This document shows positions 9,673 through 43,054 of a stretch of 64,000 bases of DNA, one piece after another. The notes under the pieces were generated by a model. It was not told the origin of the DNA. It made no database searches and saw only the letters and a list, made by a program, of their open reading frames with translations. Location: positions 72,432 to 136,431 of the forward strand of contig JACQCZ010000001.1 of assembly GCA_016201405.1 (NCBI GenBank). Direction: 5' to 3'. The translations under genes were made by a program, and so were the position numbers. This DNA is from Candidatus Acetothermia bacterium (GTDB taxonomy: Bacteria > Bipolaricaulota > Bipolaricaulia > RBG-16-55-9). The number at the start of each line of letters is the position of its first letter. The first letter of the stretch is position 1.

Positions 9673-9835
9673 GGATGAATCGCAAAAGAGCGTGCAGAAA
9701 GCGTATTGTAGATGGCGGTGTTTCCCCCGTCAAGAAGCCCGTTCTCTTCTCTCATGATTGCTCTCCAGAGGGCACGATTTGAAGCATTGTGTCTGATCGG
9801 CTACGATCTGACGTCAAATCAGACAGGAGCGCGGC

Positions 9836-10813
9836 ATGCTGCTCATCAGATTGGACCGAACAACATCGCGGATCGTCCTGGTCATCGCAGGGATAGCCCT
9901 ATTCATTATTGTGGTGTTTAGCATCTTCCATCTGGTGCGGTTTCGAGAGAATCTGGCGTCACAATTTAACAGCGAGGCTTCCCGCGCGGCGCAAATCTTC
10001 GCTGAATCGATCCATCTCGATGCTCCGCCCCAGCAGATCACCAACATCACCCACCAGTATGTTCGGGGAGATATTCTCTTTGCTCAGGTCGTTGAAGATG
10101 GCCAGATGATCGCGGAAGACCGCGTGGAGAGTGCCGAGGACCTCACTTTGACCGCCATTAATTTATCTGGGAATCTTTTTCGCAAAGAAGGCTGGCTGAG
10201 CGATGGCCATCATTATCTGGATGAGGCTCGCGCAATCACTTCAGGAGACGGGCATCTCAGCTATGTGCGAATCGGGTTCTCATTGCGAGAGGTCGATGCC
10301 GAGGTCTTGAGAGAGACCCTGATTGTGATAGGCTGGGGAGCGGGAATTCTCGTGCTTTTGGCTATCCTCCTCGGAGCCTACCTCTACCGCAGGTCTCGCT
10401 GGGATGATCAAAAGCCCATTCAGGAGTCTGGGTTCAGACAGAGCGCCGATCAGGATCAACATTTGCAGTCTGAGAATGGCAATCTGATCCCGATCCGATG
10501 GATTGAGGCCGGTCCGCTTCGCATCGACGGGGCGAGCAAAGAAGTGAAGTTGCGCCAGAATCATGTCGATCTCTCTCCCAAAGAGTATGACTTGATCAAC
10601 CTGCTCGCCTCTGAGCCAGACCGCGTCTTCTCCAATCGTGAGATCTTGCAAAGAGTCTGGGCAGGCGGATATGGAGCCACGGCCAAAGACGTCAAGCAAT
10701 ACATCTATTTATTACGCAAAAAGCTGGAGGCCGATCCCGAAAAGCCAGGCCTGATCGTGACCGTGCGCGGGTTCGGATACAAGCTTGTCTCAACGCAAGA
10801 GAGGGGGGATTGA
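9836..10813 (+). CDS. Membrane-anchored transcriptional regulator: two TMs with an extracytoplasmic domain, then a C-terminal OmpR-type winged helix
   Basis: TM1 IVLVIAGIALFIIVVFSIFHLV, TM2 IVIGWGAGILVLLAILLGAYLY, wHTH LSPKEYDLINLLASEPDRVFSNREILQRVWAGG...VRGFGYKLV. No kinase or receiver domain. Confidence 0.85.
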   Translation: MLLIRLDRTTSRIVLVIAGIALFIIVVFSIFHLVRFRENLASQFNSEASRAAQIFAESIHLDAPPQQITNITHQYVRGDILFAQVVEDGQMIAEDRVESAEDLTLTAINLSGNLFRKEGWLSDGHHYLDEARAITSGDGHLSYVRIGFSLREVDAEVLRETLIVIGWGAGILVLLAILLGAYLYRRSRWDDQKPIQESGFRQSADQDQHLQSENGNLIPIRWIEAGPLRIDGASKEVKLRQNHVDLSPKEYDLINLLASEPDRVFSNREILQRVWAGGYGATAKDVKQYIYLLRKKLEADPEKPGLIVTVRGFGYKLVSTQERGD

Positions 10814-10876
10814 CTCCATTTTGACCTCTTCGCGATTCTCATTTGACTGGAGGAATACCAAAATATGGAGGTTCTT

Positions 10877-11527
10877 ATGAAACACAAGTCAAGGCTGGGT
10901 CTTTTGGGCGGGTTGTTTGTTGTCTTTTTGATGGGCTGGGCTGGCCTTTCGCTCGAAGGTCAATCTCCAGCCCAACAACAGAAGAATGAGCTGATTCAAA
11001 CGGCGCAATCTGCCGTCGGACAGATCTCTCAGGCTCTGACGAGCATCCTGTTTGCCTGGTCCAAGATTCAAGTGGGGGATATGGAGAGCGCAAAGACTCA
11101 TGCCCACCAGGCGCTCAATATCATCGAAGGCAAAGATGGCCTGGAGTATGAGCCTTCCTATACCAAGCCCGAGGATGGCTTCACCGACAGCACCGGAGCT
11201 CTTCCGTATACCCTTCAGCTACTTGATAAGATCAAGGGGGCTACCCAGAATTCGGCAGGCTCTGACTATATAGTCGCAGCCGAGAATTCCGTCGTCTTTT
11301 TGCAAGCGACTCTCCCTCACATTCTCAAGGCGCTGGATCTGATGGCTTCTGCGGGGACTCGGGTTGACGACATCATGGTGGAGTTTCGTCAGTCTCAGGG
11401 TCTGCTGATGGCCGCCCGGGCTTCCCAGGAGGAGAAGGATCGCCCAACGGAAGGCGGAGTGAGGAGCATCTTAGCCTGGCTGAATGAGGGCGGTGCTACT
11501 AGCACTATCTTTGAGTATCAGCGCTAG
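10877..11527 (+). CDS. Secreted helical protein of unknown function
   Basis: SD GGAGG 5 nt before ATG 10877; signal peptide MKHKSRLGLLGGLFVVFLMGWAGLSLEGQ. Confidence 0.7.
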   Translation: MKHKSRLGLLGGLFVVFLMGWAGLSLEGQSPAQQQKNELIQTAQSAVGQISQALTSILFAWSKIQVGDMESAKTHAHQALNIIEGKDGLEYEPSYTKPEDGFTDSTGALPYTLQLLDKIKGATQNSAGSDYIVAAENSVVFLQATLPHILKALDLMASAGTRVDDIMVEFRQSQGLLMAARASQEEKDRPTEGGVRSILAWLNEGGATSTIFEYQR

Positions 11528-11690
11528 ATTGCAGATTTTTATCGAGGCGTAATGATCGGTTTAGGTCGCCGATGTCCGCTTTCCACAAGACTCGCGAGTT
11601 GACGCTGGCTTGACATCCCTTGTATGATTCGTTTGTGGTGAATTTTAGGGTTCATCTCAATATCAACAGCAGGGAGGCTCTCACACTATT

Positions 11691-12077
11691 ATGGAGAAAA
11701 TCTTAGCGATACTAGTGATTTTAGTAGCTGTTGGATTGGTCGGCCTTTCGATCTTTGGCCCCAAGAATTATGGCGGGACCGCGACCTTTGACAAAGAAGC
11801 CACAATCAAGATTGATCCAGGCCGAAAGTTTGACCCGGATCGTATTACCATGTCCAGCGGGCGGGTCAAGATTACGATCACCAACAACAACAACATTCTT
11901 CATCAGATCGTGATCTACGACAACGTTGAGCAGAGAATCATTGCCCAATGGGACAGCATAAAAGCAGGTGCGACCGAGACCCAATGGGTGGAATTGGTGC
12001 GCGGTCGCCGCTATGAGATGTACGATCCAACTTGGAAAGACAAGGGAATGAAGGCTGTTCTGATCGCGGGTAGCTAG
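11691..12077 (+). CDS. Membrane-anchored small beta-rich protein, possibly cupredoxin-like
   Basis: N-terminal TM; IDPGRKFDPDRITMSSGRVKITITNNNNILHQIVIYD resembles a cupredoxin strand order, but no clear copper ligand set. Confidence 0.55.
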   Translation: MEKILAILVILVAVGLVGLSIFGPKNYGGTATFDKEATIKIDPGRKFDPDRITMSSGRVKITITNNNNILHQIVIYDNVEQRIIAQWDSIKAGATETQWVELVRGRRYEMYDPTWKDKGMKAVLIAGS

Positions 12078-40946: not shown

Positions 40947-42371
40947 ATGATTCGCCTACCTAAGTGGAGCCTGCGGTACAAATTCATCGTGCCTCTAGCT
41001 CTCTTCACAATCGTGCTTGCGCTTGCCATCTCCTACATCTCCGTCGAGAGGTTCTACATAGAGCTTGAGAATCAGCTTGCAGACAGAGGTAAAGACCTGG
41101 GAAAACAGCTTGTTGATCGATTCTGGAGAAATGTCGGGGTATTACTTCCACCTGATACTAAACTCCACTATTATCAGGTCGTCCAAGAGGGAACACAGAT
41201 ATACTCCTCAGTCGTCAATAATGCCCCACCGTGGACCGAAGAGACCCTGAGCCCTCCTGTCGACGATTCGCGGCAGCTAGTCCAGTTGAATGGCAAGCCG
41301 TATTTGGAGCTGATTCTTGCGACGGACCCGGGTCTAGTCAAAGATCCAACTACAGCAAACTATGTGAGACTCTATCTCTCGATGGCCGATGTGTACACGG
41401 CTGTGCAGCGCGCCTTCTTGACCATCTCGATCTTTACGATCATCTTTATTCTGGCTGGAATTGGGATCGCCATCTGGCTCTACCGGAGCATCCTGGGACC
41501 CATCGAAGTGCTGACAAAATCAGTCAAACGATTTAAAATAGATCTGAAGGTACGGGCTGTCGTCAAGACTGGGGATGAGCTTCAGACATTAGCAGAAGAA
41601 TTCAACGGCATGGCCAACACCATTCAGGAGCGCGATGAGAGACTGGAGCGAATCAATGTCGATCTCACCAAAGCCAACCAGGTGAAGAGCGAGTTTTTGG
41701 CTGTGATGGGCCACGAGCTCAAAACACCTCTTCATGCCATCCGCGGCTATTCGCAACTGATGCTGGAAGGGATCGAAGGGCCGGTCACACCCACCCAAAA
41801 AGAAGATTTAGAGAATATCGTGCAATCGAGCGATCACTTGCGCTCGCTGATCGATAATATTTTGCAATTCAGCAAGCTCGAATCGGGCCAGGAGATGATC
41901 CATCCGGAGAGCGTTGAGGTCTCGAAGATCGTTGAGGAGGCGATGAAACACGTCAGCGTGCTGGCTCGCGAAAAAGGGATCGCCGTTCATGCTTCTGCAA
42001 ACGGGATTCGCGTCTATGCAGATGAGACGAAGCTGAAGCAAGTGCTCATCAATCTGCTCAGCAACGCCCTCAAATATACCAAAACGGGTGAGGTAGAAGT
42101 GAGTACCAAAAAGAGACGCGATGAGGTACTATTTGCAATCAAAGATACTGGGATTGGCATTCCGGAAGAGATGTATGAAAAGATCTTTGAGCCTTTTACA
42201 CAGCTTGATTCCTCAAACACCCGGGAGTGGGGAGGGATCGGCCTTGGACTTTCAATTGTAAAGAAGTATGTAGAGATGCACGGTGGAAAAATCTGGCTGG
42301 AGAGCCAGGTGGGCAAGGGGACGACCTTCTATTTCACAATACCACTTGAGGCCATTACAAATAGGTGGTGA
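40947..42371 (+). CDS. Membrane sensor histidine kinase (HAMP-HisKA-HATPase)
   Basis: Two TMs; VMGHELKTPLHAIRGYSQLM; LINLLSNALKYT; GGIGLGLSIVKKYVEMHGG. Confidence 0.95.
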   Translation: MIRLPKWSLRYKFIVPLALFTIVLALAISYISVERFYIELENQLADRGKDLGKQLVDRFWRNVGVLLPPDTKLHYYQVVQEGTQIYSSVVNNAPPWTEETLSPPVDDSRQLVQLNGKPYLELILATDPGLVKDPTTANYVRLYLSMADVYTAVQRAFLTISIFTIIFILAGIGIAIWLYRSILGPIEVLTKSVKRFKIDLKVRAVVKTGDELQTLAEEFNGMANTIQERDERLERINVDLTKANQVKSEFLAVMGHELKTPLHAIRGYSQLMLEGIEGPVTPTQKEDLENIVQSSDHLRSLIDNILQFSKLESGQEMIHPESVEVSKIVEEAMKHVSVLAREKGIAVHASANGIRVYADETKLKQVLINLLSNALKYTKTGEVEVSTKKRRDEVLFAIKDTGIGIPEEMYEKIFEPFTQLDSSNTREWGGIGLGLSIVKKYVEMHGGKIWLESQVGKGTTFYFTIPLEAITNRW

Positions 42372-43054
42372 TACCGCTGAAGATTCTGATCGCAGAAGAT
42401 GATCCGACATCCAGGACTCTGCTCACCAAGTATCTGGAGGCCCATGGGCACCAGGTCATTGCGACTCCCGATGGGAAAGAGGCGTTGGAGCAGTACTCAA
42501 AGAATCAGCCCGACCTTGTTCTATTAGATGTGATGATGCCAAAACTGGATGGCTGGGGTGTGCTCAAAGAGATTCGCAGCCGCGGAGCAGAGACTCCAGT
42601 AATCATGGTGACTGTAAAGGACACGACCGAGGACAAAGTGCGCGGCCTCTCGTCTGGCGTGGATGACTACATAACAAAACCGTTTGATCTGCGGGAGGTC
42701 GAAGCGCGAATTGAAGCCGTCATGCGGCGGTATCAAGGGCCAAAAAAGACAGGATCGCTCATTGAAATTGGTTGTCTGGAGATTGATGATGAGAAGAAGG
42801 AAGTCCGCATTGAGGGAAAGATGGTGGATCTCTCCCCTAAAGAGTACGATCTGCTCAAATATCTGGCTTCCAAGCCTGGGAAGGTCTTTTCGCAAGATGA
42901 GATTCTAAAAGAAGTCTGGTCAGACAGCACGTATGCGGGAGCTGAAGACGTCAAAAAATATGTCTATTTGCTGCGCAATAAACTGGAGAAGGATCACAAC
43001 AAAGCAGATTTGATCGCCACTGTGCGCGGCTTTGGCTACAAGCTGAATATTTAA
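42365..43054 (+). CDS. OmpR-family response regulator
   Basis: ILIAEDDPTSRTLL, PDLVLLDVMMPKLDGW, wHTH LSPKEYDLLKYLASKPGKVFSQDEILKEVW; GTG start. Confidence 0.95.
   Translation: MVIPLKILIAEDDPTSRTLLTKYLEAHGHQVIATPDGKEALEQYSKNQPDLVLLDVMMPKLDGWGVLKEIRSRGAETPVIMVTVKDTTEDKVRGLSSGVDDYITKPFDLREVEARIEAVMRRYQGPKKTGSLIEIGCLEIDDEKKEVRIEGKMVDLSPKEYDLLKYLASKPGKVFSQDEILKEVWSDSTYAGAEDVKKYVYLLRNKLEKDHNKADLIATVRGFGYKLNI

Follow-up and report, generated by a model that had tools for sequence, protein, structure and literature searches.

The Regulator Locus

The window, by which we mean the whole 64-kb stretch of DNA analyzed, comes from a Candidatus Bipolaricaulota genome. It holds a gene for a predicted transmembrane transcription regulator (TTR), followed by genes for a predicted exported partner and a cupredoxin-like protein, together with a histidine kinase (HK) and a response regulator (RR) that share homologous parts with it. 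The features are as follows.

9790-9825, + strand: inverted repeat TGTCTGAT-N20-ATCAGACA, separated by 10 bases from the regulator start
9836-10813, + strand: TTR gene, an intact open reading frame of 325 aa with homologs elsewhere
9872-9928, + strand: transmembrane (TM) helix 1, residues 13-31 (Kyte-Doolittle 3.27), inside a longer helix of the model
9929-10318, + strand: predicted extracytoplasmic sensor domain, residues 32-161, modeled as a long helix, a short helix, and five strands
10319-10375, + strand: TM helix 2, residues 162-180 (Kyte-Doolittle 2.65)
10376-10501, + strand: linker on the cytoplasmic side, residues 181-222, modeled as mostly disordered (pLDDT <50 at 196-218)
10502-10792, + strand: C-terminal OmpR/PhoB winged helix, residues 223-319 (PF00486 match; Foldseek)
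10810-10825, + strand: tandem repeat TTGAC-N6-TTGAC (11-bp period), a candidate operator at the regulator stop codon that reads towards the partner gene
10877-11527, + strand: partner gene, encoding a predicted exported all-helical protein of no known family, with a further in-frame ATG at 10865
11599-11614, + strand: second TTGAC-N6-TTGAC, a candidate operator before the cupredoxin gene that overlaps a promoter-like TTGACG-N18-TATGAT
11691-12077, + strand: membrane-anchored cupredoxin-like protein, a likely target gene (Cupredoxin_1 E 7.5e-5, below the Pfam cut-off)
40947-42371, + strand: HK, the unfused counterpart, in which a homologous sensor is followed by HAMP, HisKA, and HATPase_c
42365-43054, + strand: RR directly after that kinase, with a winged helix 60% identical to the regulator's

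Anatomy of the Regulator

An earlier note, made from the letters of this DNA, had read the protein as two TM segments around an extracytoplasmic domain of about 130 residues, followed by an OmpR-type winged helix, with HAMP, kinase, and receiver domains absent. This reading holds. Hydropathy (residues 13-31 and 162-180) and the AlphaFold2 model agree on the TM helices and the domain between them; in Pfam searches, Trans_reg_C (PF00486) at residues 242-317 (E 1.7e-21) is the sole match above the cut-off, and HAMP, HisKA, HATPase_c, and Response_reg give no match. A linker of ~40 residues lies between TM2 and the winged helix. Arginine residues precede TM1 (R5, R8, and R12) and follow TM2 (RRSR), a pattern that fits a cytoplasmic location of both ends. 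The model (mean pLDDT 87.6, pTM 0.55) is confident except at the ends and in linker residues 196-218; it has helices at 8-58, 65-75, and 151-190, five strands between 80 and 149, and the winged helix from 223. Among the matches listed by Foldseek for the full model against the PDB there are only winged helices, including the DNA-binding domains of RRs. A PDB sequence-profile search with the sensor domain gave no significant match, and the sensor of the regulator family has no convincing match in Pfam; as to a possible Cache fold, the model shows helix plus five strands, and sCache_3_2 appears weakly in two of 18 members. With a predicted DNA-binding domain and at least one predicted TM region in a single chain, the protein would qualify as a TTR.

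The same architecture, sought in other genomes as the earlier note had proposed, is found at whole length in many genomes of the phylum and is thus not an artifact. Close relatives in named records likewise belong to Candidatus Bipolaricaulota, and the full architecture is common to relatives from the same family, order, and class. The regulator is present in at least 46 of the 100 Bipolaricaulota genomes examined, in at least 68 copies, a lower bound made up of whole-length or near whole-length copies, a few of them cut by contig ends or frameshifts. In the closest relative (L005/L024), the N-terminal part lies in another frame; the upstream frame is seemingly shifted, perhaps by an assembly error.

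Origin of the Sensor and the Winged Helix

Where could such a protein have come from? A profile of the regulator sensors matches the sensors of complete HKs from the phylum, with E values between 1e-23 and 1e-31 for roughly the top eight; the window HK is matched with E 7.5e-10 and an hhalign probability of 96.6%. The HKs with matching sensors stand directly before RR genes, and the winged helices of these RRs are homologous to the regulator's. In the window, the HK and RR genes overlap by 7 bases, so that the sensor and the winged helix already stand in the order in which they occur in the regulator. Were the middle part of such an HK-RR operon lost, the fused protein would result. The close resemblance of the two winged helices, pointed out in the earlier note, is confirmed at 57 of 95 identical residues (60%), with a similar recognition helix.

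Homology of the sensor to HKs and of the DNA-binding domain to RRs supports, at the level of sequence, the sensor-to-output fusion that the note proposed; derivation of the fusion from the RR at 42365-43054 finds no support in the trees. In the winged-helix tree, the regulators cluster together (4 changes vs. 32 in shuffles), which argues against recent derivation from this RR and suggests that the fusion is old. When three long-branched RRs are removed, 2 changes suffice and the AU test does not reject a single regulator clade (p 0.37). Most regulators group together in both the winged-helix and the sensor trees. The trees thus favor one or a few ancient fusions as the probable source of the regulators; with 97 alignment columns and several long branches, the winged-helix tree leaves their number unfixed.

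The Partner and Other Neighbors

The partner protein begins with a signal-like segment and is all-helical in its structure model. Searches of Pfam, NCBIfam, and the PDB (by sequence profile) returned no convincing relatives, and the fold search gave no significant fold: the best match (E 0.034) is a designed protein, and PcaY, a natural four-helix sensor, is among the weaker ones. The partner is the one conserved neighbor of the regulator. Among the matches listed, it is the next gene 3' of 58 of the 68 regulator copies; conversely, 58 of 65 partner matches follow a regulator on its 3' side and on the same strand, at a distance of 58-198 bp as measured between match boundaries. Both genes occur in 45 of the 47 genomes that have either one among the matches listed (Fisher p 3e-26, kinship of the genomes ignored); one genome has the regulator alone and one the partner alone, in a match that reaches a contig end. 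A limited search of the literature found no description of a regulator-partner module.

The partner domain also occurs in other settings. In some f6 genomes, it is fused to right-handed beta-helix domains; at L100, L101, L102, L103, L104, L105, and L106, it forms the N-terminal part of proteins of 480-755 aa that carry such (NosD-like) domains and adjoin regulators of the same family. Partner-like proteins at L109:4072-4755 and L111:3157-3777 have no adjacent regulator; both are very methionine-rich, with an N-terminal hydrophobic helix, and their composition makes metal binding possible. The window's own genome encodes, on contig C14, a distant partner homolog with no neighboring regulator (L107:3347-3997); it is flanked by an unknown gene and one that encodes a P-loop ATPase-like protein.

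Further neighbors of the module vary. Family c3, that of the cupredoxin-like gene at 11691-12077, recurs beside it; blue-copper and cupredoxin-like proteins are found in family f4 and the window, and DUF1800/DUF1501 proteins elsewhere. The cupredoxin neighbors, and they alone, suggest copper or redox state as one possible signal. In the f6 and f7 genomes, a gene for a predicted secreted helical protein (c9) is divergent to the regulator, with tandem repeats between the two; examples are L084:6835-7692, L079:2472-3200, and L077:6952-7674, and the one member scanned has no Pfam match.

Candidate Operators

PhoB-type winged helices typically bind tandem half-sites with an 11-bp period. The window contains only two exact TTGAC-N6-TTGAC sequences (0.09 expected; none of 100 dinucleotide shuffles has two), and both read towards the next gene: the partner gene in one case and the cupredoxin gene in the other. 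The motif was first noticed upstream of the regulator in f6 and f7, where direct repeats GTCAA-N6-GTCAA with the same 11-bp period are present at 13 loci (at most 1 mismatch) and read towards the divergent gene. The 21 pairs observed there (shuffle mean 0.14, largest 2, in 500 shuffles) are therefore a descriptive count, for which the window serves as an independent check: a matrix built from the f6/f7 sites ranks site 10806, which overlaps the repeat at 10810-10825, first of ~128,000 window positions. Of 53 regulator-partner junctions, 12, from families f1, f4, f5, f6, and f7, have the repeat at spacing 11 with at most 1 mismatch (shuffle mean 0.08, largest 2), in a single orientation and never in the opposite one; L090 has four tandem TTGAC copies. 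The shuffles for the upstream and junction counts preserved base composition only. The loci are related, so these counts overstate independence. In most loci, including most of f4, the repeat was not detected at up to 1 mismatch. In f7, the junction sites overlap the last regulator codons and their conservation may thus be partly coding.

Across the 2-Mb genome, there are six exact TTGAC-N6-TTGAC sites, with about 4 expected from base counts and one observed for the reversed control; a wider regulon is therefore not evident. One of the six (L170:1501-1516) directly precedes a gene for a small membrane protein (1578-1982) and lies near a plastocyanin-like gene (2307-2996). The inverted repeat at 9790-9825 was considered as an operator and set aside: it is unique in the genome and is not common to relatives.

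A Model and Its Alternatives

The reading that we prefer, with a probability of about 0.65, is that of a phosphate-free transmembrane regulator, derived from an old fusion of an HK sensor and a winged helix, that controls neighboring genes for exported proteins via TTGAC repeats. The fusion would have joined an HK sensor (TM-sensor-TM) to an RR winged helix with loss of the HAMP, kinase, and receiver parts. An envelope signal would be detected by the extracytoplasmic domain and passed through TM2 and the flexible ~40-residue linker to alter the dimerization or positioning of the winged helices; these, in turn, would recognize the direct repeats TTGAC-N6-TTGAC in the way that PhoB-type proteins bind tandem half-sites, and regulation of either sign could follow. 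The putative targets are the helical partner and the cupredoxin in the window, and the partner and often the divergent c9 elsewhere. The partner could be exported as a co-component, either feeding back on the sensor or presenting the signal to it, or could simply be the main target.

We tentatively entertain, at clearly less than even odds, a co-component system that is old in Bipolaricaulota: a dedicated secreted helical protein would set the activity of the fused membrane regulator, which would control, via tandem TTGAC-N6-TTGAC, that same protein and further exported ones, copper-binding proteins among them. A partner that is a target only and never touches the sensor, leaving the regulator as a switch in the envelope for the induction of exported proteins, comes close to an even bet; this is compatible with the preferred reading in all but the role of the partner. 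A candidate operator precedes the partner gene, the beta-helix fusions of some genomes look like working surface proteins, and distant partner-like proteins exist without a regulator, all of which suits a mere target, but the near one-to-one co-inheritance with the regulator, while other neighbors vary, does not.

Do the repeats belong to the regulator at all? The ordinary RR, of the 42365-43054 type, could bind them instead, with the membrane regulator competing or controlling other sites: the two winged helices are 60% identical and are also similar in the recognition helix, and both genes reside in the same genome and window. Two observations make this unlikely: the repeats are located where the regulator adjoins the partner and c9, and a three-copy site is found in none of the eight tested f6/f7 genomes without a listed regulator, although most regulator-bearing genomes also have none. 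That the repeats are only σ70 -35 elements or traces of coding conservation, with the regulator acting elsewhere, is quite unlikely: TTGAC is the -35 consensus, the 11599 site falls within a promoter-like match, and the junction sites of f7 share bases with the end of a coding sequence, but two or more copies at 11-bp spacing form a specific pattern, the genome contains few such repeats, L090 has its four tandem copies, and several sites lie wholly or almost wholly outside coding sequence. Proteolysis could also release the regulator to act as a soluble factor, and the long linker, disordered in the model, offers a possible cleavage region; we consider this very unlikely, since known TTRs, as described in the main text of their survey, act from the membrane (PMC10269533).

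Under the preferred reading, in which the fused regulator controls its exported neighbors from the membrane, the locus may be of wider use. For most TTRs, no target, signal, or partner is known to us; in this case, the comparative data suggest two handles: (i) candidate DNA sites, together with the genes that they may control; and (ii) an exported partner inherited along with the regulator. The same genome contains an unfused HK-RR counterpart with homologous sensor and DNA-binding domains, so that the shortening of a two-component pathway to one protein is open to test. Judging from sequence, the module could provide a functional foothold in an uncultured, little-studied phylum and a compact signaling unit that dispenses with a phosphate relay.

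Comparison With Known Systems

OmpR/PhoB RRs share their winged-helix family with the regulator and probably the type of tandem direct-repeat site; the regulator differs in having no receiver domain (no Response_reg match) and in being, by prediction, membrane-bound. TfoS and ChiS of Vibrio cholerae resemble it as membrane-anchored regulators, and their DNA-binding and sensor families are different. They are two distinct TTRs that cooperate and work from the membrane (PMC11856585).

A membrane-anchored OmpR-type winged helix is also shared with ToxR and CadC. In the ToxR family, the winged helix is N-terminal and is followed by one TM and a C-terminal periplasmic domain (PMC5936718), an arrangement with which the earlier note rightly contrasted the present protein. 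With its winged helix at the C-terminus and two TMs, the regulator does not belong to this family. As in ToxR-ToxS, a dedicated neighboring gene encodes a protein of the outer side, here the predicted exported partner found next to 58 of 68 copies; unlike ToxS, this partner is all-helical and predicted to be exported. A lipocalin-like fold has been reported for many, though not all, co-component partners, and the all-helical model of the partner does not have it.

TTRs are a named and common class (Demey et al., 2023; PMC10269533) whose members, according to the main text of that survey, combine a DNA-binding domain with TM segments in a single chain and use no phosphorelay, as is predicted for the regulator. 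A precedent described there is Rsp of Neisseria gonorrhoeae, in which the PilS receptor is joined to the PilR DNA-binding domain: an HK sensor and the DNA-binding domain of the cognate RR form one protein, in the same N- to C-terminal order (PMC10269533). The earlier note had allowed that the architecture might prove common and already named; this is so for the broad class and for the kind of fusion that Rsp exemplifies, but not for the regulator's own sensor and partner, which have no convincing Pfam match. Since the class is named and the sensor-to-output fusion has a precedent, the architecture alone is not new. The main text of the survey (PMC10269533) contains no description of a family that combines a C-terminal OmpR-type winged helix, an HK-type sensor, and a linked exported partner, and Rsp, as presented there, has a PilR-type DNA-binding domain and another sensor and is a single chimera, as opposed to a phylum-wide family with a partner gene. 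The part that seems new is the module: the regulator together with its co-inherited, predicted exported partner.
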